From Gemmatimonadota bacterium (GTDB lineage: Bacteria; JBHIER01; G020348925), in assembly GCA_020348925.1 (NCBI GenBank), contig CP070758.1, positions 2,642,660-2,660,735 on the forward strand: DNA of 18,076 nt, read 5' to 3'. The position numbers and the translations under genes were made by a program. Numbering within the stretch: position 1 is the stretch's first letter; each line of letters begins with the position of its first letter. Positions 2,647 through 16,147 of the stretch are shown piece after piece. The notes beneath the pieces were generated by a model. The model searched no databases. It saw only the letters and a program-made list of their open reading frames with translations, and was not told where the DNA came from.

Positions 2647-5600
2647 CTATTCTTTTTTTCTCTGATGGAATTGTGTCACTTGGTGCATGAAGGCTTCAAG
2701 CCGCGTTAAGGATTGGGTTTCCTCTTGGCCGTCGTACGCCAGATTTAACCAGGGGACGTTGTCGTAGTCCTCCCGAAACCTTTTGGAAATGGCTATGACC
2801 ACCATACCCGGCATGCACGTAAAGGGCATGACGTTGACGATGCCCGAGAGCCCCTTTTTGACGTAATCGGCAGCTTTCCCGATACTCAGGATCGCCTCCC
2901 CCCCGAAGGTGTGATGCATATATCGAGCACTGTTGCCCAGGACCTCGGAGGTCGGGGGTTCATGAATGTTGAGAAGCATATCCTTGAAAGGTTTCGAGAT
3001 GGTGTGCTCGTCGTACCGCTGGACCCGATCCTTGATCCAGCCCTTGACAAAATCTGTGTAGACTCCGTAGGCCAGACTGTCTTCCTTGAAACGGTGATTG
3101 GTGTACAGAACCCACTCGGAGATCGGGGCCACCCAGGCTTCACCGCCCAGGCTTTCGATCTTGGTCACGACGTCGTTATTGCTGAAACGGTTGGACCGAA
3201 TGAAGATCTCCCCGACAACGCCCACGATCGGTTTGCGCGTCTTCTTGTCGACGGGGATTTTTTGAAAGCGCTCCTTGATCTGCCCAAGAACCCCCGCAAG
3301 ATTTCCGTTGGTGCCGGCGAGCTCGTCCTCGATGAGCTTGAGGCACTTTTTGTACACCTTCTCGGTCTCACCCCTATTTATTTCGTAGGGACGCGTCTCC
3401 CACAGAAGTTTCTGGAGAAGGTCGACGGCCACAATTCCCCTCCAGGCCCGGCGCTGAAAACCGTTTCCCAAATCGCCGAATTCGCTGTAGGAATTCCTAG
3501 AGCTCGGGGAAATGATGGGTATATCCGGATATCCCAGCTCACCAAGAATGATGCGATCCATTCGGTTGTATTGGCCGAAGCGGCAGGGCCCACTGGCCGA
3601 GGGCATGAGAAAAGCCGTTCGGTTCGGATCGAAGCTCGGTTCCTGGACCTTTTTCACAATATCACCAGTGGTTACGATAAAAGGGAAGCATTCCTTCCCT
3701 GAGGCGTGTTCTCTTCCCAGCCGTACGGTCTCGTCATCCGATTCCGGAAGCACTTCCGAATCCAGACCGTAGTGGCGGAGGGCAGCACTGATGGCGTATG
3801 CATGGTCGGACATGTGAGGAACGAAAATGGTTCTGCTGGCCAGTCCTTTGGCCGAGGGCGTGGCTTCGTGCCATTCCCTGCTGGAGATCTCCCGCTGATC
3901 CTCGTTCTCAAGACTGTCGAAAAAGGCCTCGCATCGTGTGATGGTTCCCGCATCGGCGCTGTGCTCGTCGATCTCCAACTGCAGATAGGGCTTTCCAGTC
4001 ATAATTGCTCGGACGTAGTGCTCGATAAAGGAGTCCGGCCCGCACTTGAAGTTGGAGATGTATATGACATGCAGTCTCGGGTCACTTCTCACGATCTCGG
4101 CAGCGCTGAGTATTCTCTGCCCGTACTTCCAATACATGTTCGGAAACTCGGTGGAAATATCCTGGTCTTCCAGAGAAAGGAAATCCATGGGAATGGCCAG
4201 CACCCCCATATCCTTCAATTTCTTCGGAAGGTCGAGATTGATCCCGGGATCGCAACCGTTGTAGGGCCGACTTATAATGACGACGGCGCGTTGATCCGGC
4301 GACAGACCCTTCATGACCTCGCGGCCGCGGCGTCGAAGATTCTCATAAAAGGTGCTTTGGGCGTCCTTGGCGATTCGAAGGGCACTTTTCACATCAGCGG
4401 CTGTTCTCCCCAAGCTCTTACCCAAACGAACCAGGGTCTGCTCAATGTGTTTTTCCCCTCGCTGAAACAGAATCGGCGGTGTCAAAAGTTGCGGGCCAGC
4501 CCCATCAAAGCGTATGGCCGAATGTATCGTGTACGGCAGGGCCTGGACGAGAGGGCAGACGTAATTCTGCGATATATTCGGGTTTGAGCGGGCCATATTT
4601 ATGATGCTCGGCAGGAAGATGTAATCGACACCCTTTTCGAAAAGATCCATAATGTGGCCGTAAACGATCTTTACGGGAAAACAAGTGTCCGCCACATCGT
4701 TTTCAACCGAGCTGTGGATGAGCTGGCGGTTGGTGGTCTCCGACAGGACGACCTCGAAGCCCAGTTCCGAGAAGAAGGCCTTCCACAGAGGATAGAGTTC
4801 ATAAAAATGGAGCACCCGCGGCATGCCGACCCGCTGCCGCTGAGGACCGGAAGATGTTGATGTGGGGAGGGATTGTCCCTCATAAGATGTCAGGAGAAGA
4901 TGCTCCCTCTCTCCAAAGAGATCGGGCAGATCCGCGCCCCTCCCTTTGGCCTCATCCACCTCGTAACGCTCGCAGCGGGGTCCGTAGAAGAGGGGCCTCT
5001 CGTTTTCGAAGACGACTTTTCTGACGTCACACCTGTTCTCACATTTTTTACATTCAAAGGAGGTGGTGGTGTACTTTCTGTGACTCAGATCGAATCCCTT
5101 GAAGCGGCTCGGTCCCTCGATCTTGGCCTTCATGGCCAGGATGGCCACTCCGATAGCACCGGTAACATCGTGGTGCGGTGGCACGGTGATGCGTTTCCCC
5201 AGCACCTTTTCGAAGGCGGCCACCACGGCACTATTCCAGGCCACTGCACCCTGGAAGAAAATTTTGTTCCCGATACGCTTCTCCCCGACCACTTTATTCA
5301 GGTAATTGTAGACGATGGAGTATCCCAAACCCGCAACCAGGTCCTCCTTTTCGGCCCCCTTCTGTTGATACGAGACGAGATCCGATTCCATAAAGACGGT
5401 GCATCTGTCGCCGAAACGACCCGGGGTTTTGGCCTGTAAAGCCAGGTCACCGAATTCGCCGACGATGTTGATGTCCAGCCGCTCCGCCTGTTCCTCGAGA
5501 AAGGAGCCGGTGCCGGCGGCACAGACTTTATTCATTTCGAAGTCGACGACGATACCGTTGTCGATGCTGATGTACTTCGAATCCTGACCTCCTATTTCGA

Positions 5601-6882
5601 AAATGGTGTCCACGTCCGGATCAAAGTGTATGGCGGCCGTGGCCTGGGCTGTGATCTCATTTCTGACCACATCCGCCCCGACGTAGTCTCCCGAGAGGTA
5701 GCGCCCCGAACCGGTCGTGCCCACTCCGCAAACAGTGACTCGATCTCCCAGTTCCCGTCCCACTTCCTCCAGGCCTCGACAGACTGCCAGGAGAGGACGA
5801 CCCGCCGTTCGCAGATATCGACGGGCCAGGACATTTTTCTCCTTGTCCAGAACGACCACGTTGGTGCTCAGGGAACCGATGTCTATGCCGACATAGGCCT
5901 CAGTTTTTTTCGCGCCGCCCTTCAGAGGGTGCAGCTTCGTCTGAACCTGCTCGTTGGCCAGTTCGTAGTCAAGGCTGAGCTTTTCGAGCCCTTCCGGTGG
6001 TGTCTGTTTCACCTTCAGGTGCGATCTTAAGGCGTCGAGGCCGGGCCACGGGGCCTGGATCGCAGTCTTACGCTCTCGCGCCACAAGGACCGCCCCGATA
6101 GCTCCCATGGAGGCAAAATGCTCGGGAATGATGAGCTCCCCGTCTTTGAGGTCGAGAACATCCCTGAAAGCCTTGACCACTCCGAGGTTCGCTGCCACCC
6201 CACCCTGAAAAGCAACCGGCTTTTTGAAGCTCTTGCCGCGACCGACGTTACTTTTGAAACTTCTGGCCACAGCGTAGCAGAGTCCCGCCACAATATCGTA
6301 ATCCGGCGTACCGATCTGCTGCAGGTGGATCATGTCCGACTTGGCGAAGACACTGCAGCGGCCGGCTATTCGAGGTGGTCTCTCCGATTTGAGCGCCAAT
6401 TGACCGAACTCCTCCTCAATGGACAATCCCATGCGGCTGGCCTGCTGGTCGAGGAAAGAACCGGTTCCCGCAGCACAGATGGCGTTCATGGCAAAATCCG
6501 TGAGTCGTGCTCCCCCATCTCCCGGCTCCTCTTCGAGAAGGAGCAGCTTCGAATCCTGCCCTCCCATCTCTATCACTGTCCGCACCTGGGGATAATAGAC
6601 TCCGACAGATCTCGCTTGAGCAACAATCTCGTTTACGAACTCAGCCCTGAGAAGATTTGCAAGTAACTCTCCACCCGATCCTGTAACGGCGACTAGTGAA
6701 ACCTGATGAGGGGAGAACCTGGTGAGGATATCCTCCATAACTCTCAGAACAGTCGGTAACGGTTGTCCTTTCGTTCTGTTGTAATGATCCTCGAGGATAG
6801 AATTCTTTTCATCGAAGATGACGATCTTTGCACTGACCGAACCGACATCAATACCTATAAAAATCTTTTTCTCCATAAACAT
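2647..6882 (-). CDS. Giant single-chain acyl-CoA dehydratase activase/reductase-like protein (two BcrA/HgdC ATPase modules plus COG3580/COG3581)
   Basis: This 1411-aa protein has two tandem BadF/BadG/BcrA/BcrD-type ASKHA ATPase modules. Module 1 (about 6-270) has IGIDVGS, GGQDSK (108-112), CAAGTGSFL with Cys136, and RCSVF with Cys176. Module 2 (about 328-585) repeats these as VGIDIGS, GGQDSK, Cys454 and Cys494. In HgdC-type activases two equivalent Cys from each subunit hold one [4Fe-4S] cluster at a dimer interface. Next comes a CxxCxxxC motif (Cys611, 614, 618; Cys637 nearby). The rest (about 685-1411) is DUF2229/HgdB-like, with ADTCFP, NGCDPG, KCGPDSFIEHY, GKECFPF, GPCRFGQYN and MPFTCMPGM. 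The family uses ATP hydrolysis to push single electrons to very low potential; here donor and acceptor parts are fused. The physiological substrate is not known. The start at 6882 has only a weak GAG upstream; a second ATG lies at 6876. The upstream gap holds paired direct repeats. Confidence 0.9.
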   Translation of the reverse strand: MFMEKKIFIGIDVGSVSAKIVIFDEKNSILEDHYNRTKGQPLPTVLRVMEDILTRFSPHQVSLVAVTGSGGELLANLLRAEFVNEIVAQARSVGVYYPQVRTVIEMGGQDSKLLLLEEEPGDGGARLTDFAMNAICAAGTGSFLDQQASRMGLSIEEEFGQLALKSERPPRIAGRCSVFAKSDMIHLQQIGTPDYDIVAGLCYAVARSFKSNVGRGKSFKKPVAFQGGVAANLGVVKAFRDVLDLKDGELIIPEHFASMGAIGAVLVARERKTAIQAPWPGLDALRSHLKVKQTPPEGLEKLSLDYELANEQVQTKLHPLKGGAKKTEAYVGIDIGSLSTNVVVLDKEKNVLARRYLRTAGRPLLAVCRGLEEVGRELGDRVTVCGVGTTGSGRYLSGDYVGADVVRNEITAQATAAIHFDPDVDTIFEIGGQDSKYISIDNGIVVDFEMNKVCAAGTGSFLEEQAERLDINIVGEFGDLALQAKTPGRFGDRCTVFMESDLVSYQQKGAEKEDLVAGLGYSIVYNYLNKVVGEKRIGNKIFFQGAVAWNSAVVAAFEKVLGKRITVPPHHDVTGAIGVAILAMKAKIEGPSRFKGFDLSHRKYTTTSFECKKCENRCDVRKVVFENERPLFYGPRCERYEVDEAKGRGADLPDLFGEREHLLLTSYEGQSLPTSTSSGPQRQRVGMPRVLHFYELYPLWKAFFSELGFEVVLSETTNRQLIHSSVENDVADTCFPVKIVYGHIMDLFEKGVDYIFLPSIINMARSNPNISQNYVCPLVQALPYTIHSAIRFDGAGPQLLTPPILFQRGEKHIEQTLVRLGKSLGRTAADVKSALRIAKDAQSTFYENLRRRGREVMKGLSPDQRAVVIISRPYNGCDPGINLDLPKKLKDMGVLAIPMDFLSLEDQDISTEFPNMYWKYGQRILSAAEIVRSDPRLHVIYISNFKCGPDSFIEHYVRAIMTGKPYLQLEIDEHSADAGTITRCEAFFDSLENEDQREISSREWHEATPSAKGLASRTIFVPHMSDHAYAISAALRHYGLDSEVLPESDDETVRLGREHASGKECFPFIVTTGDIVKKVQEPSFDPNRTAFLMPSASGPCRFGQYNRMDRIILGELGYPDIPIISPSSRNSYSEFGDLGNGFQRRAWRGIVAVDLLQKLLWETRPYEINRGETEKVYKKCLKLIEDELAGTNGNLAGVLGQIKERFQKIPVDKKTRKPIVGVVGEIFIRSNRFSNNDVVTKIESLGGEAWVAPISEWVLYTNHRFKEDSLAYGVYTDFVKGWIKDRVQRYDEHTISKPFKDMLLNIHEPPTSEVLGNSARYMHHTFGGEAILSIGKAADYVKKGLSGIVNVMPFTCMPGMVVIAISKRFREDYDNVPWLNLAYDGQEETQSLTRLEAFMHQVTQFHQRKKE

Positions 6883-7307: not shown

Positions 7308-7384
7308 TGTTCTGTCCTCCTCTCGTTGCTCGTTTCAATGGTGGTCCGTCACTGACACCCATACTCCGAAAAGAAAGTTCGGAA

Positions 7385-7413
7385 AAAATAGTTTTACTCA
7401 TGTATAAAGTCAA
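7385..7413 (-). promoter_or_regulatory. Promoter for the ferredoxin gene
   Basis: On the minus strand TTGACT (7408-7413) and TATTTT (7385-7390) are separated by exactly 17 bp, with AT-rich flanks, about 80 bp upstream of the ferredoxin ATG. It is the best sigma-70-like promoter in the window. Confidence 0.6.
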
Positions 7414-7418
7414 GGGTA

Positions 7419-7436
7419 AAAGGGTCAGATCCCTTT
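7419..7436 (-). terminator. Short hairpin between mobB and ferredoxin genes
   Basis: A perfect 6-bp inverted repeat, AAAGGG-ATCTGA-CCCTTT, lies 21 bp beyond the mobB stop and directly upstream of the ferredoxin promoter. Its T-rich edge (CCCTTTTACC) makes a weak terminator for the AOR operon possible, but the stem is short. Confidence 0.35.
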
Positions 7437-7457
7437 CGCTGGTGTTTCAAAATCCGA

Positions 7458-8159
7458 TCACTTTTCAATAGTCATCTCGATCGAGCCGGTGCGGAAACCT
7501 CGGAGTGATGAAAGCAGACCGATGATCGTATTCGAAATCATCCGTGCGATGAAAGGATTCAATGGCAGGATCTCGCCGTCAATTCTTAGATCGACCTCCC
7601 CTTGGAGAGAGGCACAATCTTCTACGGTTTTCTCTCCCATTACGATGGCTTTGGCCAGTTCGTAACACGTGTCGAAGCCACAAGCCCCGCAATCCAACCT
7701 TGGCAGCTTGAAGGATTTTTCAAGAACGAGATCAGCCAGCTCGTGGATGTCACTCACAAGAGGAACGGAGAGATCCTCGCCTGATCCGACGACACATATT
7801 TGAAGCCCATCAAAGAGATTTTTCGCCTCGGTCTCATCGCGCAGGCACACAATCTTGGGATATGTCTTTTCATCCTTGAAGCCCTCTATAACGGCGATGT
7901 CTGTCCTGAAGAATTTCAGGACTTCCTCTAATGGCATGACCTCCTGAAAAGAGATCACTGTTTCAGAATCGGACAGGGCAGCTCCCTGACCGGAACACTC
8001 GATCATCTTCGTGCTGTCCACATCAGCCGGGGTGAGGTTCGAATCGGAGTGCTTGATCACGGCCACGGTGAATCCTCTGCTCCGAAGTTCCTGGCACAAA
8101 TTGACTGCCAATGAGGTTTTGCCACTTTTTTTAAAACCGACAATTCCTATGACCTTCAT
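7458..8159 (-). CDS. mobB: MobB-like GTPase fused to an Fe-S domain
   Basis: This 233-aa protein has an N-terminal MobB domain (1-150) with a P-loop GFKKSGKTS (Gly8-Ser16), the motif VAVIKHSD and the Walker-B-like region DIAVIEGFKDE. MobB proteins bind GTP and assist insertion or modification of the molybdopterin-guanine dinucleotide cofactor. Residues 157-182 hold CxxCxxxxCx16C (Cys157, 160, 165, 182), the pattern of the four-cysteine Fe-S domain (PF04060) also seen in corrinoid Fe-S proteins. A further conserved-looking tail (about 190-233, with NPFIARMISNTIIG) follows. A clear RBS (AAGGAGA) precedes the ATG. The gap to the MoaD-like gene upstream is 93 bp. It is the last gene of the AOR cluster. 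AOR-family enzymes carry bis-pterin without the nucleotide, so the MobB role here may be delivery or quality control rather than guanylation. Confidence 0.88.
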   Translation of the reverse strand: MKVIGIVGFKKSGKTSLAVNLCQELRSRGFTVAVIKHSDSNLTPADVDSTKMIECSGQGAALSDSETVISFQEVMPLEEVLKFFRTDIAVIEGFKDEKTYPKIVCLRDETEAKNLFDGLQICVVGSGEDLSVPLVSDIHELADLVLEKSFKLPRLDCGACGFDTCYELAKAIVMGEKTVEDCASLQGEVDLRIDGEILPLNPFIARMISNTIIGLLSSLRGFRTGSIEMTIEK

Positions 8160-8190
8160 TCTGCTTCTCCTTATCTAAGGTGAAAAAGCG

Positions 8191-8212
8191 CGAGGCGTTC
8201 TTTGGGTCCTCG
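8191..8212 (-). other. Weak hairpin with T-run between moaD-like and mobB genes
   Basis: On the minus strand CGAGG-12 nt-CCTCG is followed by CGC and then five T. The stem is only 5 bp with a 12-nt loop, so it could at most act as a leaky attenuator that lowers mobB expression relative to the upstream genes. Confidence 0.2.
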
Positions 8213-8252
8213 ATCCAAGGGGAAATGCTTTCTGTTCCATATGGGAGGAATA

Positions 8253-8540
8253 TTATCCGCCCCCGATGAGGAGCATGAAGGTGACGATGTCACCATCGTT
8301 CAGAGGCGCGTCATGTTTGTCCGCAGTTATCCAGACCTTTCTGTTGAGGGCAATCTGAATCATGGTGTCGAACTCGCCCTGTCTGGTTGTGAGAGCCTCT
8401 TTCGCCTTCTGACCGTATTTTTGAATCAAAGCCTCTATGAGTTCTTTTACGGTCGTACCGGTAAAATCGAATTCCAATTCTTCTTTACCGATGACCTTGT
8501 TCAGCATGGGCAAAAGGCGTATTTCAAGATGAACCTTCAT
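8253..8540 (-). CDS. moaD: MoaD/ThiS-like ubiquitin-fold sulfur carrier ending in Gly-Gly-Gly
   Basis: This 95-aa beta-grasp protein (MKVHLEIRLLPML at the N-terminus, then TTVKELIEALIQKYG, ALNRKVW and LNDGDIVTFMLLI) ends in Gly-Gly-Gly. MoaD-family proteins are adenylated at the C-terminal glycine by an E1-like enzyme, become thiocarboxylates and give sulfur to precursor Z to make molybdopterin. The predicted partner enzyme is encoded immediately upstream, 13 bp away. I chose the ATG at 8540 because AGAGGA sits 8-9 nt upstream and the family fold begins there; an in-frame extension to 8594 would overlap the MoeB gene and adds no family-like sequence. The third terminal glycine is unusual, since most family members end in exactly two. 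It could instead serve another sulfur-transfer role, but the AOR context favours tungstopterin. Confidence 0.88.
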   Translation of the reverse strand: MKVHLEIRLLPMLNKVIGKEELEFDFTGTTVKELIEALIQKYGQKAKEALTTRQGEFDTMIQIALNRKVWITADKHDAPLNDGDIVTFMLLIGGG

Positions 8541-8553
8541 AGTCGTATTCCTC

Positions 8554-9591
8554 TCAATTGCCGATGTACTTGGAGTATAACGCTCTGGCCACATTCGGAT
8601 CTTCGGTGCCTTTCACAATGACCCGTCCGTCAGGGAAAATGACCAGATGATAGGTATCGACATGAAACATAATCATGTCCGGGGAGACCTCTGTGCGGCC
8701 GGCCGGTTCGAGCTTTTTTGCCAACGTCTCAAGATGTATCCCTTTCGGTTCATAGTAGGTGATCATCACCGTATTTCGCCCACAGAGTGCGGTTACGGAA
8801 GCACCCTCTCGAGCCTTGAGGGCCGGATACTCCTCTTTTTGGCAGGACGCGCAATCCTCTTGCCGCTGCAATTTCGTCCCGACACACGTCCCCTCCCATA
8901 CGTCACAATAGATGAGCTCGCCGGATGGTGTTTGCCTTCCAGTCAACAGTTTGAAGCATTCGGAAACCTGAAGAGAGCCCACTGTTTGAACGATGGAAAG
9001 AAGAACCCCGGAGGTGTCGCAGGTGTGGAGGTGTTCAGGAGGAGGGATTTGGGGAAAGATGCATCTCAAGCACGGAGTGACACCTGGGACGATGGTCGTG
9101 CACATCCCGCGACTTCCCGCCACTGCACCGTAAATCCAGGGGATATTCCCCTTCACGCAGGCATCGTTCATGAGGTACCGCGTCTCAAAGTTATCCGTGC
9201 CGTCCATTACGACGTGGCTCCCCGCAACGATCTCCTCAATGTTGCCGTAATGCACATCCGTTACGACGGCCTCGAGGGACGCACTCGAATTCATCCTCAG
9301 CAATTTTCGTCGAGCAGCCGTAGCCTTGGGAAGATGCTTCCGGGCATCCTCCTCATCATAGAGAATCTGATGAAGGAGGTTCTCCTCCTCGACGAAATCG
9401 CGATCGACGATTTTTATTTTTCCGACACCGGCCCGAACGAGAGAGGTCGCAATGACAGAGCCCAATCCCCCGCACCCAATGAGGGTTACTCTGCTCATTG
9501 ACAGTCGTTCCTGACCTTCAGGGCCGATCCCCGAAAAGAGCATCTGTCGTGAATATCTTTTTAAATGTCGAAGGTTTTTCTCTTTCATCAT
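8554..9591 (-). CDS. moeB: MoeB/ThiF/HesA-type E1-like adenylyltransferase with C-terminal extension
   Basis: Begins with the family motif RYSRQMLFSGIGPEGQERL (12-30). The ATP site GCGGLGS is at 39-45 and acidic loop IVDRDFVEEENLLHQ at 61-75, with DGTDNFETRYLMND at 130-143. A zinc site is formed by Cys174/Cys177 and Cys247/Cys250. Cys191 in TCDTSGVL matches the conserved cysteine of MoeB-like enzymes. The family adenylates the C-terminal glycine of MoaD- or ThiS-like carriers; the next gene encodes such a carrier. Residues about 265-345 (starting VTALCGRNTV) form an extra C-terminal domain seen in some anaerobe and archaeal members. I prefer the start at 9591 (GAGG about 10 nt upstream, 345 aa); an ATG at 9624 would add 11 residues without a clear RBS. 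Confidence 0.9.
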   Translation of the reverse strand: MMKEKNLRHLKRYSRQMLFSGIGPEGQERLSMSRVTLIGCGGLGSVIATSLVRAGVGKIKIVDRDFVEEENLLHQILYDEEDARKHLPKATAARRKLLRMNSSASLEAVVTDVHYGNIEEIVAGSHVVMDGTDNFETRYLMNDACVKGNIPWIYGAVAGSRGMCTTIVPGVTPCLRCIFPQIPPPEHLHTCDTSGVLLSIVQTVGSLQVSECFKLLTGRQTPSGELIYCDVWEGTCVGTKLQRQEDCASCQKEEYPALKAREGASVTALCGRNTVMITYYEPKGIHLETLAKKLEPAGRTEVSPDMIMFHVDTYHLVIFPDGRVIVKGTEDPNVARALYSKYIGN

Positions 9592-9657
9592 GAAAGGATA
9601 CCTCGCGTAACGTGAGTTTTTCATACCGGACAATCAAACATATACTCTGTGCGTCTT

Positions 9658-10578
9658 TCAAGGTGTCTTCTTCCGTAAGGTGTGAAGCATATAATTTGGA
9701 TTCTCAATTGAGAAGAACAATATCCTCTCCAAGAGTATCCCGCTGAGGAGACTGATCAAAATGGCCGTCGCGGGTATCATCAAGGGCTCCTTCGCTGCTG
9801 TTGATCCCAAGATAAAGGTGAAGGGAAGAATGAAGGTCAAGAGAATATACCAGCGGGGAATCCTATCTTCGCCGTCCCGAAACGTTCCTCCCGAGGCCTT
9901 ATCATGTATGGTTTCAGCATATCTCTTGTAGCTCAAAACTGTCAGGAACAGAAAAACAAGAGAAAGAGCCATGGCAAACAGGAGGATCCGTATGGCCCCT
10001 CCCGCCATATTGGAACAAAAGATCGCGTCGATCCAAAATACCGTTGCTGCACCCAGAAGAGAGCCTGAGATGATGGAATACACCGAAAGAATGTTTGTAT
10101 TCCACAAAGGGTGGGAGACGAACTTGTAGGCCCAACCGGTGCTTCCGAGAGTCAGCAGGCCGGAGATGATGACGAGGATGGCCGATATGATTCGAAGGAG
10201 ACCAAATGTGTTGAAGACGTACAGCATAAGACAATCGACGGCCACAAGGCCTGTAAAGACTCCTGCCAGGAGAACCTCCCAACTCACCTGCGAGCGGAGG
10301 TTTTTTATCATGGCCAGAAAACGCAGCCGGTCACTCAGGTGAAAAATGGAGAACAGCGTAGCGATCAGGATAAGAATCAGCGAACCCCCCATACTTATCT
10401 TGACAAGCTGGGGGAAACGATTTCCAGCCTGCAGAAATCCGGCCACGATTCCGGTCCCGACAGACCAGCGTGAGAAGAGGACGAAGAGAACTAAGGGGTA
10501 GTCGGGATCATACCGGTCCGTTCTCCTCTCGCAGTTCTCTTGAAGGCGAAAATACGTCGATTTCGGAAATGACGCCAT
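9658..10578 (-). CDS. DmsC-like membrane anchor, probable quinone-reactive subunit
   Basis: This 306-aa integral membrane protein has about eight hydrophobic helices (near 29-48, 61-80, 101-122, 125-147, 162-185, 194-215, 242-260, 264-285). It matches the DmsC (DMSO reductase anchor) pattern: PLVLFVLFSRWSVG in helix 1, FHL with His80 followed by an arginine-rich loop, SWE at 99-101, SHPLWNT at 155-161 and an ILLERILFF end. DmsC-type anchors take electrons from, or pass them to, menaquinol and contain no heme. It starts 9 bp after the AOR-B stop, and a perfect 10-bp hairpin lies directly before its start. Its neighbours are AOR and Fe-S subunits rather than a DmsA-type enzyme, so it probably anchors a cytoplasm-facing AOR complex. 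No strong RBS is visible; expression may be coupled to AOR-B translation. Confidence 0.82.
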   Translation of the reverse strand: MASFPKSTYFRLQENCERRTDRYDPDYPLVLFVLFSRWSVGTGIVAGFLQAGNRFPQLVKISMGGSLILILIATLFSIFHLSDRLRFLAMIKNLRSQVSWEVLLAGVFTGLVAVDCLMLYVFNTFGLLRIISAILVIISGLLTLGSTGWAYKFVSHPLWNTNILSVYSIISGSLLGAATVFWIDAIFCSNMAGGAIRILLFAMALSLVFLFLTVLSYKRYAETIHDKASGGTFRDGEDRIPRWYILLTFILPFTFILGSTAAKEPLMIPATAILISLLSGILLERILFFSIENPNYMLHTLRKKTP

Positions 10579-10587
10579 GTTTTCTTG

Positions 10588-12447
10588 TCAGACTTCCGAA
10601 ATCTCCAGGACTTCGGAAGTCTCTCTCATGCGTGAATTGTTTTTGGGTAATCCGGTTTCAGATTCCCAATCTCTCAGGGCGTAATACCGGGACAGCATAG
10701 TACGCCATTCCTGGTGTGAGCATCCTGCTCTCTCTGAATCCCCGGTGAGCAACCTATCCATCGGAAATCGTTCCTCATCCGCTCGACTCACCCCCTCCCG
10801 TGCTGCAAGACGCCGCTCATCTGCGATCACCTTTTCAGAAGCATTGATGAGGGCCTCCTCGTCCAGACCGAGATCTGCCACGGCCGACAGCTGTTCGATT
10901 AAATCCGCAGGATTCAGGACGGGAAGTCTGGCATAGGGAAATGAGCAGACGCCGGCAAGGTCGGCGGCACATTTTACATCTTCGGTTCGCTTTACGATAT
11001 GAGCAATCGTATCGATGTTTGGTGGAGGGTTCACTCCGCTCTCGGATTGTCCCTGTTTTTTCCGGGTATTGTGTTCATGTCTCATATCGCCGGACAGGCC
11101 GATCACTTTTTTGAGGTTATCCCAATCGCCCGTCGAGACAGCCGCATGAAGGGCCGAATTCATTCTCATATCTTTGAGACCAACGAGTTCAAGGCCTTTC
11201 ACATGTGCGACGAGCTCTTCGCTTTGGCGGCCTACTATTTCGGATGCCCTCAAAGCGCCTTCGGCGAGGGTGTCACCACTCCCTTCACGCTTCGCAATTT
11301 TTTCTATGAGCTTCACAGCCCCTTCCGCGTTTCCCCAGTGAAGGGGAATGTCGTCCGTCTCGTGTTCGCGGAACAGACCTTTGTCGAAGGTCCTCATGGC
11401 CCAGGCGATGGTCCCGCCCGTTGATACTGGGTCGAGTCCATATAGTATGCACATCTGTATCATTTTTAAAATAGAATCCCACCGGGCGATTCCCATTTCA
11501 GGGCCCAGAGCACGGACACTTTCTCCGTGCGCTCCTCCGAAGTGGATCCCGTCGTAAGGGCCGCTTTTCACGTGCGTATAGCGGCCGCAATGTATGGGGC
11601 AGGCGAAGCACCCTTGCTTGCTGAAAAAATAGTTTTTACGGTAATACCGGGAGTTGATGTCCTGAAACGAGCCCCCCGGCGACTGGCCCTGATGTTCTCT
11701 CAAGACGAAGAGTGTCCCCTCGAAGCTGAGGGCTTGGGTTCGCGAGTCCCCCTGTATTTTATGGATCAATCCTTTACATACTGCGGCAAGATGCTCAGGA
11801 TCATGGAGGCTTGCGGATCGGCTTCCCCTCACGGCCACGGCTTTCAGGTTCTTCGAGCCCATAACTGCTCCCAGGCCCAACCTCCCGGAATCCCAGTGAA
11901 AGGCGTTGACCAGAGAGGCGTATCGAACAAGACGTTCCCCGGCCGGTCCGATGCACAGCACTTGAACGGTTCTGTCCTTCAGTTCTTCCTGAATGAGAAC
12001 GGTCGTTTGATGGGTGTCTTTGCCCCACAAATCGGTTGCATCTCTCAATTCCACATCGTTGTCATGAATCCAAATATATGTTGGATGCTCAGCCTGACCC
12101 CTTATGACTATTTGATCGGAACCTGTAAATTTGAGCTCAGCGCCCCAGTGGCCGCCCATGCTCGATGTGGCGTATGTCTGGGTCGCAAGCATGGGCGATT
12201 TCGACGCCACAGACGTAATGGCCGCACAGGGCGCACATGTACCGGTCAGCGGTCCGACGGCCAGACAGAAAGCTGTCTTCGGATCATACGGATCAAGATC
12301 TGCCTTGGTCTCCTCGGAGAAAACGTTCACATTAAAACCTCTGCCGCCTATCCACGACTCGAGATAATCAGAGGACAGATGCTCGTGCTCGATCTTTCCC
12401 CTGGAGAGATCGATCCGCAATCTTTTTCCCGCCCAGCCTTTTATCAT
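10588..12447 (-). CDS. AOR-family tungstopterin oxidoreductase B (divergent active site)
   Basis: This 619-aa AOR family protein has family landmarks: IGGRGF (33-38), AVGPLTGT (63-70), SSMGGHWGAELKFTG (95-109), GLGAVMGSKNLKAVAVRG (191-208), and GLDPVSTGGTIAWAM (337-351). The [4Fe-4S] ligands are Cys280, Cys283, Cys287 and Cys501 in DLAGVC. Most family members have EGPEYE(T/S) after the cysteine triplet; here it is GGAHGES (304-310). The usual DHLR is WDNLKK (442-447), so the conserved His is Asn444. The ATG at 12447 overlaps the stop of the Fe-S gene as ATGA, and residues from here match the family start (WAGKRLRIDLS); a longer in-frame extension to 12768 lies inside the Fe-S gene and is rejected. 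Substrate unknown: an aldehyde, or an acyl-CoA/aromatic-CoA as for BamB, are both possible. Confidence 0.9.
   Translation of the reverse strand: MIKGWAGKRLRIDLSRGKIEHEHLSSDYLESWIGGRGFNVNVFSEETKADLDPYDPKTAFCLAVGPLTGTCAPCAAITSVASKSPMLATQTYATSSMGGHWGAELKFTGSDQIVIRGQAEHPTYIWIHDNDVELRDATDLWGKDTHQTTVLIQEELKDRTVQVLCIGPAGERLVRYASLVNAFHWDSGRLGLGAVMGSKNLKAVAVRGSRSASLHDPEHLAAVCKGLIHKIQGDSRTQALSFEGTLFVLREHQGQSPGGSFQDINSRYYRKNYFFSKQGCFACPIHCGRYTHVKSGPYDGIHFGGAHGESVRALGPEMGIARWDSILKMIQMCILYGLDPVSTGGTIAWAMRTFDKGLFREHETDDIPLHWGNAEGAVKLIEKIAKREGSGDTLAEGALRASEIVGRQSEELVAHVKGLELVGLKDMRMNSALHAAVSTGDWDNLKKVIGLSGDMRHEHNTRKKQGQSESGVNPPPNIDTIAHIVKRTEDVKCAADLAGVCSFPYARLPVLNPADLIEQLSAVADLGLDEEALINASEKVIADERRLAAREGVSRADEERFPMDRLLTGDSERAGCSHQEWRTMLSRYYALRDWESETGLPKNNSRMRETSEVLEISEV
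10591..10621 (-). promoter_or_regulatory. Perfect 10-bp inverted repeat at the AOR-B/DmsC-like junction
   Basis: GACTTCCGAA and TTCGGAAGTC pair perfectly around an 11-nt loop. The repeat covers the last codons of AOR-B, ends exactly before its TGA, and is 12 bp from the ATG of the membrane anchor. The right arm and loop contain the only purine-rich stretches (GGAG, GGAAG) that could serve as an RBS for the anchor, so folding would hide it until ribosomes finishing AOR-B open the stem. Confidence 0.6.
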
Positions 12448-12932
12448 ATTCGTTTCAAAATTCCGCGATATTGTTCTGCGAGGGATTGACCGACGTGCCG
12501 CCTCTTCTTCCAAGCAATACATTCTGCAGGAATATAAGAAAGCGCTCCTGTAGTACAGACGCCCAGGCATTGGGGATCGCCCTGACACACATCGCACGTG
12601 ATGGTTTTTTTCGTGAGCGGGTGCACTTTGGGGGCGGCATATGGGCAGGCGTAGATGCACGATTCGCAACCCACACAGATCGCATCGTCCGTAATCACAG
12701 CCCCCGTTTTCGGGTCGCGCTTGCGAGCCTTCGTCGGACAGACCTGCTCGCACACGGGATCGATGCACCGCTGGCAGATCATGGGAATGTGAACGGCCAT
12801 CTCACCCCAGGTCTCGATTGTGATTCTGGAATAACGGGGGTTACTGGCACCATCGTGAACGAGTGAGCAGATGGCCTCACACGACCTGCAGCCGGTGCAC
12901 AGATCCGGATCGACAAAAAGAATCTTATGCAT
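12444..12932 (-). CDS. Four-cluster [4Fe-4S] electron-transfer subunit (partner of AOR-B)
   Basis: This 162-aa protein of the HycB/DmsB/AorA/BamC-like ferredoxin group has sixteen cysteines in four sets: Cys12/15/18/22, 53/56/61/65, 86/89/92/96 and 113/116/122/126. That predicts four [4Fe-4S] clusters forming a wire; Cys138 is extra. It has no signal peptide or twin-arginine motif, so it acts in the cytoplasm. Its TGA overlaps the AOR-B ATG, which points to stoichiometric coupling with that catalytic subunit. It lies 22 bp behind the very similar Fe-S gene at 12955. The two have identical cysteine spacing, so they are paralogues. Its role would be to move electrons between the AOR pterin/Fe-S site and the DmsC-like anchor or a ferredoxin. 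Confidence 0.93.
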   Translation of the reverse strand: MHKILFVDPDLCTGCRSCEAICSLVHDGASNPRYSRITIETWGEMAVHIPMICQRCIDPVCEQVCPTKARKRDPKTGAVITDDAICVGCESCIYACPYAAPKVHPLTKKTITCDVCQGDPQCLGVCTTGALSYIPAECIAWKKRRHVGQSLAEQYRGILKRI

Positions 12933-12954
12933 GGTAAGAGAAATTTCCCCTGCC

Positions 12955-13437
12955 CTATCCGACGAATTTTCTCATCAGCTCGGAGAAATGCTCCCCGGCC
13001 GATCGTTTCTTCTTCAAAGCCGCCGCGCTGACATCAATATATTCTATCGCCTTTGGATCGCAGAAACTGACGCACGTCGGCTCGCCGTCGCACAGATCGC
13101 ACTTCATCACTTTCTCCTCGGTCGCGTCTATGCCCATCCCCCCGAAAGGACAGGCTGCGACACACATGAAGCAGCCAATACACTTGTCGTAATCAACGAC
13201 AACCCGGTTCAGGTCAGTCTCGCGGGAGATCGCATCCTTGGGACAGACCGTCATGCATGCTGCCGTTTGACAGTGCTGGCACAGCATCGGCAGATAGAAA
13301 CCGTCCGCCTCCCATTTGATGATGTTGATTCGCGCCCGCGACGGGTTGCTGACGCCGGTCTTCTTGACCGAACAGACCATTTCGCACAGCCTGCAGCCCG
13401 TGCATTTCTCGTGATCGACAATTAAGAGTTTTTGCAT
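12955..13437 (-). CDS. Four-cluster [4Fe-4S] electron-transfer subunit (partner of AOR-A)
   Basis: This 160-aa protein has sixteen cysteines at 12/15/18/22, 53/56/61/65, 86/89/92/96 and 113/116/122/126, the same positions as in the adjacent paralogue. Other shared blocks are KLLIVDHEKCTGC near the start and ACPFGG after cluster 3. It is of the AorA/BamC/HycB type that partners AOR-family enzymes. The ATG at 13437 is chosen because the family begins at this point; a longer frame to 13497 would overlap AOR-A. It follows AOR-A by 25 bp. No export signal is present. The gene order AOR-A, Fe-S, Fe-S, AOR-B suggests two catalytic units joined by two electron wires, but it could also be two separate AOR-Fe-S heterodimers. 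Confidence 0.93.
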   Translation of the reverse strand: MQKLLIVDHEKCTGCRLCEMVCSVKKTGVSNPSRARINIIKWEADGFYLPMLCQHCQTAACMTVCPKDAISRETDLNRVVVDYDKCIGCFMCVAACPFGGMGIDATEEKVMKCDLCDGEPTCVSFCDPKAIEYIDVSAAALKKKRSAGEHFSELMRKFVG

Positions 13438-13462
13438 CTCTTTCCCTTTCGATTGAGTCTCT

Positions 13463-15370
13463 TCAAAGCATGTGGGACGGCTCTTTATCCAAACCAAGCT
13501 TCTTTAACGTCTCCGGCTTGGGCACGCCCTTCTCGTCCCAGCCGTGCAATTGGTAGTACTCATCGATCATTTTTGTGAACTTGTCTCGATCAATACTTTT
13601 CCCTCTGGCCACATCCAGTCCTATGGGCGTCGGCTCGTCGAAGTACCGGTCCGGCAGCCAGTCATCCTGTCGCGTCAGTCCCTCGCGGATGTTGAAGAGT
13701 CTCTCGATGTTGTAAGCACGATCGGCCACCTCCCAGATGTCGGCCGGGGATAACTCAAGACCGGTGTTGTGATACAATAGTTTCGAGAACTCATCGAAGC
13801 TGAGCAGATTGGGGCTCAAGAAGACGGAGTGAAATTTACACACGCCCAAACAGTCCACGGCCTCGTAGCACATCTCCTGCCACTGAACCATGCGGGGTTT
13901 GCCCTCGTAGTCCGAAAAATCTGAGCTCAAGGGACCATCATAGGGGGTGGGATGGCCGAAGATCTTTCGCAGCGCTTCCTCCGGAAGATGGTACAGATCG
14001 ATGGCCGGGCGGCTGCGCAGATGGTCGGAGCCGCGGGATGAGGTGGCAATGCCCAGGGCCAGTGAGGGTGTCGGCCGCTCGTCGGAGTGAAGGTTACTCA
14101 TGCCCTTCACCTGTATGTTGTACTTGAGCGAATCTCTTCCGATTCTTTCACTGGCGCGGAGAGGACCCTCAGCCAGGATATCACCCAGACCCTGGCGCTT
14201 GCCGATGCGGTGAATCATCTCCAGCACGGCCTCGTCGTTTCCGAAGTTGAGCTGCAATCCGTCGGTGTCCTCGTCCGTCAGGATGCCTTTTTCATAGAGC
14301 TCCATGGCCCAGGCAATCATGCTGCCCGTCTCCAGCGTGTCGAGACCGTAGTCGTTGACGAGATGGTTGCCGGCCAGGACCGTGTTGAAGTCGGTGCACC
14401 CCTGTTCGGCGCCGAAGGCACCCTGTGTTGTGTATTCAGGTCCCTCCGCATAGGTCCCCGCGTAAGGACCTTCCTTAATGACGTAGCGGTGGCGGCAGTG
14501 GAGCTGGCAGCCGAAGCAGCCGGCCGTGCCGATGGTCACGTCGTCCAGGTTCTCACACTCGAGGTTTTCGCTGTCCGGCAGCTGGTTTTGTTGGAAATTT
14601 TTCACCCTGACCAGACCGGTCGAGTTGGTCACACCGTAAATGAACATCGTCCCCCAGCGCTGCATAATCTGTCCGAATTTGGTCGAGGTGATTTTATCGA
14701 TAATTTCTTTATTGTATTTCAGGGCCTCCTCCGGATGCCTGATGGTGATGTCCATGGTGCCCCGGACGGCCACGGCCTTCAGGTTTTTCGATCCCAGGAC
14801 AGCACCCATTCCGGTCCGACCGCCGGCATCCTTGTGGCTCGTCCTGACGTTGGCAAAGCGGACCCGTTTCTCGCCGGCAGGGCCGATGACGAGAGATTGG
14901 ATCTCCTCGTCCTCGAGCTCTTTTCGAATGAGATCCTGGGTCTCGAAAGCACCCTCTCCCCACAGATGGGACGCGTCCCTGATCTCGATCTCACCGTTGT
15001 GTATCCACAGGTAGACAGGGGTCTTCGCTTTCCCCCTGACGACCAGATGGTCGAATCCGGCCCAGCGCAATTCCGGGCCGAAGAAGCCGCCCATGTTGGT
15101 ACTTCCGAGGTAACCTGTCAGGGGCGATTTCGCCGCCACATGCGTCCGCGATGAGGCCGAGGCCAGGGTTCCGGTCAAAACGCCGGCGCTGATCATGGCC
15201 GCATTGTCAGGGCCAAGGGGATCGACACCTGCATCCGTGTGGTTGTACAACAGATACATATCGAGCCCCCGCCCACCGATGTACTTTCGACGTATCTCCA
15301 TAGGAATTGGCTTCGTCTCGACTTCCCCGGTCGTGAGGTTGATATACGCTATTTTTCGATGTAATGCCAT
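13463..15370 (-). CDS. AOR-family tungstopterin oxidoreductase A
   Basis: This 635-aa AOR-family protein is typical in most landmarks: IGGRGLDMYLLY (31-42), GVLTGT (63-68), NMGGFFGPELRWAGFDHLVVRGK (92-114), RTGMGAVLGSKNLKAVAVRG (185-204), GLDTLETGSMIAWAMELYEKG (342-362) and SDHLRSR (448-454). The [4Fe-4S] ligands are Cys285, Cys288, Cys292 and Cys511 (DCLGVC). The usual EGPEYET/S motif reads EGPEYTT (309-315). It resembles both AorB-type aldehyde oxidoreductases and BamB of class II benzoyl-CoA reductase; sequence reading alone does not separate the two. The start at 15370 has GAGGAGGAA about 9 nt upstream; an in-frame extension to 15484 is non-family sequence that overlaps the zinc-ribbon gene. 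No twin-arginine signal, so the enzyme is cytoplasmic. The gap to the zinc-ribbon gene is 19 bp. Confidence 0.93.
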   Translation of the reverse strand: MALHRKIAYINLTTGEVETKPIPMEIRRKYIGGRGLDMYLLYNHTDAGVDPLGPDNAAMISAGVLTGTLASASSRTHVAAKSPLTGYLGSTNMGGFFGPELRWAGFDHLVVRGKAKTPVYLWIHNGEIEIRDASHLWGEGAFETQDLIRKELEDEEIQSLVIGPAGEKRVRFANVRTSHKDAGGRTGMGAVLGSKNLKAVAVRGTMDITIRHPEEALKYNKEIIDKITSTKFGQIMQRWGTMFIYGVTNSTGLVRVKNFQQNQLPDSENLECENLDDVTIGTAGCFGCQLHCRHRYVIKEGPYAGTYAEGPEYTTQGAFGAEQGCTDFNTVLAGNHLVNDYGLDTLETGSMIAWAMELYEKGILTDEDTDGLQLNFGNDEAVLEMIHRIGKRQGLGDILAEGPLRASERIGRDSLKYNIQVKGMSNLHSDERPTPSLALGIATSSRGSDHLRSRPAIDLYHLPEEALRKIFGHPTPYDGPLSSDFSDYEGKPRMVQWQEMCYEAVDCLGVCKFHSVFLSPNLLSFDEFSKLLYHNTGLELSPADIWEVADRAYNIERLFNIREGLTRQDDWLPDRYFDEPTPIGLDVARGKSIDRDKFTKMIDEYYQLHGWDEKGVPKPETLKKLGLDKEPSHML

Positions 15371-15389: not shown

Positions 15390-15581
15390 TCATGTTGAAA
15401 TGCGCTCAGGAATACTGTCCCAGACCGGCCCTCGAATTTTTGCCGTCTTCGGATAGGGCCATGAGATACGCCATTGCATATCACATTTCGGACAGTTCGC
15501 CTTGTCCGCTCTGGCTGCCGGTCTGAATCGCGTGAAGCAGTTCAAACAGCGAACCTCACCATCCCTGGTCCGTGCTTTCAT
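15390..15581 (-). CDS. Small zinc-ribbon protein, uncharacterised
   Basis: This 63-aa basic protein has two CxxC knuckles (Cys12/Cys15 as CLNC and Cys30/Cys33 as CPKC) in the spacing of a zinc ribbon or rubredoxin-like fold, followed by a tryptophan-containing tail (WRISWPYPK). I do not recognise a named family. Its ATG overlaps the queH stop (ATGA) and a strong GGAGG lies 8 nt upstream, and it ends 19 bp before AOR-A. This tight placement suggests a part in AOR assembly or regulation rather than tRNA modification, but it could equally be a nucleic-acid-binding accessory of queH. Confidence 0.75.
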   Translation of the reverse strand: MKARTRDGEVRCLNCFTRFRPAARADKANCPKCDMQWRISWPYPKTAKIRGPVWDSIPERIST

Positions 15582-16147
15582 GGTTTCCGCCTCCCTTCTT
15601 TTTTACTGTAGACACACCCACAGTAGTTCTGCCTATAGATTCCCAGGATCTCGCTCATTTCTGTTGTTCTCTTGAAGCCGTTCTTTTTCTTAAAGTTGCT
15701 CTCTAAAAAGTGAACGCCATACTTTTTCACCGCCTCGCAACCGGTTCTATTAATTGTTTCGGCTTTTTTGTGGGGACTGACGGTCAGTGTTGTTGCAATG
15801 ATGTCAAAATTCTCCTCCCGGGCGCACTGAGCGGTCTTTTCCAATCTCATGCGAAAACAGGCTTCACAGCGGCGTCCGCCCTCCGGTTCATTCTCCATGC
15901 CCTTGATCGACCCGAACCATTCGCTCACATCATACTCTTCGCAGCGGAGTTCAATATCATATGTTTTTGCGAGATTTTTTGCCTCATTAAGCCGGAGTTG
16001 ATACTCGTTTTCAGGATGGATGTTGGGATTATAGAAGAGACCTGTTACTTCATAATCCTTTTTTAAGAGATCGATGACATACGGTGAGCAGCCTGCGCAG
16101 CACATATGGAGCAACAGTTTCGGATGGTTTGAGGTCACAAGGCTCAT
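15578..16147 (-). CDS. queH: Epoxyqueuosine reductase QueH
   Basis: This 189-aa member of the QueH family (DUF208, PF02677) catalyses the last step of queuosine synthesis: reduction of epoxyqueuosine to queuosine in tRNA, replacing QueG in many anaerobes. Visible motifs are the HMCCAGC loop (Cys16, Cys17, Cys20), CEACFRMRL with Cys94/Cys97, TLTVSPHKK (120-128) and YCGCVYS with Cys176/Cys178. Known QueH uses Cys/Asp-bound [4Fe-4S] and a second iron site, and these cysteine sets match. Start choice: the ATG at 16147 is the only family-consistent one, but the best RBS (GAGGAG) is about 15 nt away with an intervening ATG-TAA, so initiation may be weak. It is the first gene of the run leading into the AOR cluster, with ATGA overlap to the zinc-ribbon gene. 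Confidence 0.93.
   Translation of the reverse strand: MSLVTSNHPKLLLHMCCAGCSPYVIDLLKKDYEVTGLFYNPNIHPENEYQLRLNEAKNLAKTYDIELRCEEYDVSEWFGSIKGMENEPEGGRRCEACFRMRLEKTAQCAREENFDIIATTLTVSPHKKAETINRTGCEAVKKYGVHFLESNFKKKNGFKRTTEMSEILGIYRQNYCGCVYSKKEGRRKP

Follow-up and report, generated by a model that had tools for sequence, protein, structure and literature searches.

A putative cytoplasm-facing, membrane-attached double tungsten oxidoreductase encoded in a Gemmatimonadota genome

What does a bacterium gain from two different tungsten enzymes encoded side by side with a single membrane anchor? The question is raised by an 18,076-nucleotide stretch (the window; G000:C1:2642660-2660735) of the 5.04 Mb single-contig genome of a Gemmatimonadota bacterium. 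One run of its genes encodes two large subunits (WorL) of tungsten-containing oxidoreductases (WORs) from the aldehyde oxidoreductase (AOR) family, here called AOR-A and AOR-B, two iron-sulfur (Fe-S) proteins resembling the WOR small subunit (WorS), FeS1 and FeS2, and a membrane protein of the DmsC/NrfD family. With confidence a little short of even, we favour the reading that these proteins form a cytoplasm-facing, membrane-attached double WOR, in which two WorL-WorS pairs are combined with a flipped DmsC-type anchor and electrons pass to quinone. All the parts are of known kinds; their combination falls outside the five published WOR classes. In order of transcription, the genes are as follows.

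15578..16147, minus strand: QueH, epoxyqueuosine reductase (PF02677, E 6e-68)
15390..15581, minus strand: ZnR, 63 residues, CxxC-x14-CxxC, zinc-ribbon or rubredoxin-like (weak zinc-ribbon profile matches)
13463..15370, minus strand: AOR-A, WOR large subunit, 635 residues (Pfam AFOR_N, E 2e-77; AFOR_C, E 1e-119)
12955..13437, minus strand: FeS1, WorS-like protein for four [4Fe-4S] clusters (Fer4-type Pfam domains, 16 Cys)
12444..12932, minus strand: FeS2, WorS-like protein for four [4Fe-4S] clusters (Fer4-type Pfam domains, 16 Cys)
10588..12447, minus strand: AOR-B, divergent WOR large subunit, 619 residues (Pfam AFOR_N, 2e-70; AFOR_C, 2e-70)
9658..10578, minus strand: DmsC/NrfD-family anchor, eight predicted transmembrane helices (PF04976, 40 bits, cut-off 22.3)
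8554..9633, minus strand: MoeB/ThiF-family adenylyltransferase with a C-terminal extension (PF00899, 230 bits; NF009123)
8253..8540, minus strand: MoaD-like sulfur carrier with C-terminal GGG (PF02597, ThiS/MoaD, 34 bits; TIGR01687, 46.9 bits)
7458..8159, minus strand: MobB fused to an Fe-S domain, MobB-FeS (PF03205, 66 bits; PF04060, 50 bits)

The eight genes from AOR-A to MobB-FeS (7458-15370, minus strand) had been listed in a first-pass annotation of the DNA. Their coordinates are confirmed and every family assignment is borne out by Pfam; its description of the Fe-S proteins as four-cluster proteins also holds, each having 16 motif cysteines. That list was correct but overlooked a ninth gene, ZnR, at 15390-15581. 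The spacing from AOR-A to MobB-FeS is operon-like (25, 22, -4, 9, 24, 13 and 93 bp), and from ZnR through the MoaD-like gene all neighbours overlap or lie within 25 bp of each other. Scans for promoters and terminators of the locus gave nothing above chance. The whole genome holds six AFOR_N genes.

AOR-A belongs to a module that is found elsewhere. It has an ortholog in 78 of 389 genomes from the class of the Desulfobacterales metagenome-assembled genome CSMAG_771, the weakest of those listed being 56% identical. ZnR lies directly upstream in 28 of the 29 ortholog loci fetched from Desulfobacterota (L187-L215), the contig of the 29th stopping about 100 bp upstream of AOR-A, and the same adjacency is seen in one archaeon (Hecatellales); most of the loci that were read completely have an FeS1 homolog next after AOR-A. 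On the strength of these three observations, ZnR-AOR-A-FeS1 is a conserved and fairly common module. No AOR-B or DmsC homolog occurs in the neighbourhoods of the AOR-A orthologs at the Desulfobacterota loci examined. A maximum-likelihood tree of 146 AORs places AOR-A with Desulfobacterales proteins at 100% support in the Shimodaira-Hasegawa-like approximate likelihood ratio test (SH-aLRT) and then with the Hecatellales protein. The best solved relative of AOR-A is 1aor (395 bits), which is a better alignment match than BamB for both AOR-A and AOR-B. The best matches of FeS1 in the PDB are WOR small subunits, 9mqx_E of a bifurcating WOR and 8c0z_C of AorABC (2e-35). ZnR, which was seen beside AOR-A orthologs at the window, L178, L170 and L187-L215, fits no curated family; C12, C15, C30, C33 and an RGPVW motif are invariant in its alignment (A3), and it is a candidate WOR subunit or maturation factor. 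At one further locus (L179, 6078-7651), a 361-residue AOR homolog, with the C-terminal domain largely missing, lies near a full AOR-A and adjoins a four-cluster Fe-S gene of its own; it is possibly a pseudo-AOR or a decayed gene.

The second half of the run, FeS2-AOR-B-DmsC, is rare. The best relatives of AOR-B among 386 genomes spread over the domain are 35-36% identical, an alignment-based scan of public genome contigs found relatives of at most 37% identity, and AOR-B as a single-sequence query gave no match in genome contigs. AOR-A and AOR-B fall in different clades of the tree, and in both cases the AORs grouped with them have Fe-S proteins of their own; AOR-B is joined with six AORs at 99% SH-aLRT, and an FeS gene lies beside several of these six. 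FeS2 is 38% identical to FeS1. Some relatives of AOR-B (L038, 2786-10047; L071; L072) stand with an Fe-S protein beside an AMP-ligase and an HdrA/FlpD-like flavoprotein, a setting that resembles a Bam-type acyl-CoA enzyme cluster. The closest parallel to the arrangement itself is in a Hecatellales archaeon (L093, 4014-7365), where FeS, AOR and DmsC genes have the same order and strand relationship, the anchor also matches PF04976 (42 bits) and has an inverted charge pattern (below), and the AOR likewise lacks the residue equivalent to His448. It differs in having a single AOR in the trio and no adjacent cofactor genes. Since its AOR shares just 31% identity with AOR-B and belongs to a different clade, where a relative has retained His448, the FeS-AOR-DmsC arrangement probably arose more than once. 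We considered whether two Hecatellales contigs, C130 with ZnR-AOR-A and C50 with FeS-AOR-DmsC, could be joined to give the order of the window; this was rejected, since visual inspection of the 181 bp upstream of the FeS gene suggested the 3' end of some other, unrelated gene.

In PfAOR numbering, AORs that oxidise aldehydes have Thr243, Glu313, Tyr427 and His448 in common (PMC12096430, PMC13328260). By alignment, AOR-A has T, T, S and H at these positions and AOR-B has T, E, K and N, so that neither carries the full set of second-shell residues of an aldehyde-oxidising AOR sensu stricto. Both keep the four Cys ligands of the [4Fe-4S] cluster (288, 291, 295 and 494 in PfAOR) and the Asp489 and Asp343 positions. 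In a 147-sequence alignment, His448 is present in 134 sequences and Glu313 in 114; Thr313 is common to the AOR-A orthologs and so marks that subfamily. AOR-B further has Ile at Arg76, the sole case in the alignment, Ser at Asn93, a common change, and a replacement of Tyr312. Its AlphaFold model (predicted local distance difference test, pLDDT, 78; predicted template modelling score 0.86) superimposes on 1aor with Z 46.5 and a root-mean-square deviation of 2.1 over 577 residues; the rows below the AOR family in the structure comparison (VIA-align) were single ubiquitin-like domains with low Z and were ignored. The less certain stretches of the model include 243-264 and 444-474, both of them pocket segments. 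AOR-B therefore seems to be an AOR that folds and keeps its cluster but has an altered pocket, which would suit either a different chemistry or a reduced role. A Cys ligand of the BamB or YdhV kind was considered for both proteins and rejected, there being no Cys in the Glu313 segment, where YdhV has GGNTC. Two tandem clusters (L124 and L166) also combine one AOR that has His448 with a neighbour that does not. That such a pairing recurs in the window and these unrelated clusters is no more than suggestive, as the AORs were sampled by their similarity to AOR-B. The L124 cluster (7355-12635, Desulfobacteraceae BB40) encodes an exported double WOR, with an Fe-S protein bearing a twin-arginine translocation (Tat) signal, an AOR, a second Tat-FeS and a second AOR, the one without His448, followed by Fe-S and HdrA-like genes.

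The anchor has eight hydrophobic segments, and its H80, S96 and E101 align with His65, Ser82 and Glu87 of Escherichia coli DmsC. In exported complexes, the quinone side of DmsC is periplasmic. When Lys and Arg were counted per loop and compared between the quinone side and the opposite side, the ratio was 19:4 for the window anchor and 21:3 for its Hecatellales homolog, against 4:8 for the exported E. coli DmsC and 2:11 for YnfH; for L237, a fusion of DmsC with an Fe-S domain that lacks an export signal, it was 19:6. Given this inversion relative to the exported homologs and the positive-inside rule, the anchor is predicted to have its quinone side in the cytoplasm, the orientation that has been argued for SoeC (PMC8076601). 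FeS1 and FeS2 agree with a cytoplasm-facing anchor, in that their first cluster motif is at residue 12 with no twin arginine or transmembrane stretch before it. In the L237 locus (7670-9685), the fused Fe-S-DmsC protein, with its inverted charge pattern, is followed by a molybdopterin oxidoreductase.

These observations can be assembled into a working model, to which we give rather less than even confidence: a hetero-double complex (AOR-A FeS1)(FeS2 AOR-B)DmsC on the cytoplasmic face would constitute a sixth WOR architecture, in which electrons from a catalytic pair reach an inverted anchor, which reduces quinone, by way of a second pair whose AOR has been repurposed. In AorABC, the small subunits stack into a wire with clusters less than 15 angstrom apart, which is capped by the NAD-binding AorC (PMC10413684). 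By analogy, AOR-A and FeS1 would be the main catalytic pair, with an atypical active site (His448 but Thr313), and FeS2, itself a polyferredoxin of this type, would receive the electrons from FeS1, as along the wire of Aromatoleum aromaticum. FeS2 would dock on the cytoplasmic face of the DmsC-like protein, where quinone would be reduced, so that the anchor would cap the wire in place of AorC; the two-step path from AOR-A through FeS1 and FeS2 to the membrane is inferred from this likeness. AOR-B, seated on FeS2, would be either a tungsten or molybdenum enzyme for a non-aldehyde substrate or a subunit with a largely structural and electron-relay role.

Several results weigh against this model. 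The full order of the window is absent from all other genomes and loci searched; a shared AOR-A/Fe-S/Fe-S/AOR-B/DmsC order, set beforehand as the test of the first-pass annotation, was therefore not found, although the absence is weak evidence because the window genome is the sole member of its phylum in the searched set. The phyla of this genome and of G032, G086 and G042, with one to four genomes each in that set, are uninformative. His448 is missing from 11 other AORs of the 146 examined, and so its loss in AOR-B is rare, not unique. The AlphaFold model of the DmsC-like protein, built from two sequences, was poor (pLDDT 45) and was not used. Each module also occurs alone, and the pairs may therefore form two enzymes. 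The main alternative, possible but in our view doubtful, is accordingly that the operon co-transcribes a soluble, Class II-like WOR (ZnR, AOR-A and FeS1) that reduces ferredoxin and a separate membrane WOR (FeS2, AOR-B and DmsC) with its own substrate. The first set is complete alone in Desulfobacterota, FeS-AOR-DmsC stands alone in Hecatellales, and the nearest relatives of AOR-B are stand-alone FeS-AOR pairs. However, the modules are contiguous in the window, with 22 bp from FeS1 to FeS2, they draw on a single set of cofactor genes, and their two Fe-S proteins belong to the same type, at a level of identity that would suit a heteromeric wire.

The electron acceptor requires similar caution. 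His65, Ser82 and Glu87 of DmsC are tied to quinone handling (PMC8076601), and their retention in the anchor suggests that quinone is the acceptor. The genome as a whole lacks MqnA/D, and no Men genes were seen in the 1.3 Mb (26%) of it that was sampled; these too count against the model, and a quinone pool is not established. Of the proposed link to the menaquinone pool, then, the quinone-site residues and the PF04976 assignment of the anchor stand, but menaquinone itself is unproven. The anchor could instead act without quinone, docking the complex, perhaps moving ions, and using ferredoxin as its electron partner, a mode proposed for NrfD-like systems that work without quinone. Dehalococcoides, which lacks quinones, does have a membrane complex with an NrfD-like subunit (PMC10772276), and Nuo membrane subunits were, like Men genes, not seen in the 1.3 Mb sample. 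We nevertheless regard this as unlikely, as all three residues linked to quinone binding in DmsC are kept, SdhA and SdhB homologs are present in the genome, and the Men gene check covered only about a quarter of it.

The first-pass annotation had also raised a splitting of electrons between quinone and ferredoxin. In principle, two branches could be built from two AORs and the eight clusters of FeS1 and FeS2, which no result favours; known bifurcating WORs need a WorABC module (PMC13328260), and the window has no flavin, NAD or WorABC-type subunit or other flavoprotein. Such bifurcation is very improbable, and that part of the annotation falls away.

How does a quinone-linked double WOR compare with what is known? 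About 4,000 WORs have been classified into five classes, none with two large subunits or a DmsC anchor, and membrane association is reported only for clade 41 WORs, which have an exported WorS and none of which has a known activity (PMC13328260). Both pairs of the window show the Class II trait, a four-cluster WorS beside WorL, but the definition of Class II includes neither an anchor nor a second WorL. AorABC of A. aromaticum (8C0Z), an example of Class II/III, likewise couples WorL to a WorS with four [4Fe-4S] clusters that can polymerise; unlike the window, it has one WorL and one type of WorS and ends in the soluble NAD-binding AorC, with no membrane anchor. The FAD/NAD-binding WorN (AorC) of Class III and the WorABC subunits of Class IV are absent from the window. 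Bifurcating Class IV WORs and BamBC share an AOR-fold large subunit with a ferredoxin-like partner, but need WorABC or BamD-I modules, which the window lacks. Class V, represented by E. coli YdhYVWXUT (clade 41), is similar in that it is a WOR predicted to be linked to the membrane and includes Fe-S partners and a membrane subunit, but it has a Tat-exported WorS, another type of anchor and one WorL. No Tat signal or transmembrane segment is present in FeS1 or FeS2, and YdhV sits with L027 on a branch of 100% support apart from AOR-A and AOR-B. Among other anchored systems, the catalytic subunit of the cytoplasmic sulfite dehydrogenase SoeABC belongs to the DMSO reductase family, not to the AORs. 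Its DmsC-family anchor resembles ours in being expected to be inverted, with a cytoplasmic quinone site and His65 and Glu87 kept (PMC8076601). The E. coli YnfEFGH cluster combines a pair of paralogous catalytic genes with an Fe-S protein and a single DmsC-type anchor, but its enzymes are of the DMSO reductase family, with one Fe-S gene and an exported orientation (Lys+Arg 2:11). Tandem AOR pairs also occur in L045, L092, L096, L105, L124 and L166, none of which has the window order or a DmsC. The assertion that two different AORs with a DmsC anchor match no known system therefore holds for the combination, which we did not find elsewhere; clusters with two AOR genes are uncommon, though the window is not the sole example.

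The ThiF, MoaD-like and MobB-FeS proteins would serve cofactor maturation. Genes for the operon's own cofactor supply are indeed present, as had been proposed, but are ordinary, because ThiF and MoaD-like genes are common beside WOR genes (PMC13328260). MobB, which is linked to guanylation of the bis-molybdopterin guanine dinucleotide cofactor, sits here among enzymes whose relatives use a nucleotide-free cofactor; it may instead have a tungsten-specific role, as MobB has in another bacterium (PMC13197769). QueH is the first gene of the overlapping run, its stop codon overlapping the ZnR start (ATGA), and is probably housekeeping. A 1411-residue protein encoded on the same strand (2647-6882), 575 bp downstream of MobB-FeS, has two BcrAD/BadFG activase domains and DUF2229. 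Such neighbouring acyl-CoA dehydratase genes (this activase, and HGD-D beside AOR-A in L170) hint at CoA-ester or aromatic metabolism, and prove nothing as to the substrate.

ZnR is an uncharacterised but constant partner of a widespread WOR in many Desulfobacterota. With AORs that have and have lost His448 found in pairs, it becomes testable whether some AORs became non-catalytic or differently catalytic partners. Respiratory links in the published WOR classes are limited to the exported clade 41 enzymes (PMC13328260). If our reading is correct, tungsten enzymes would also be coupled to the membrane in a second and independent manner, through a cytoplasmic WOR that brings its own quinone anchor and has no need of a soluble ferredoxin.

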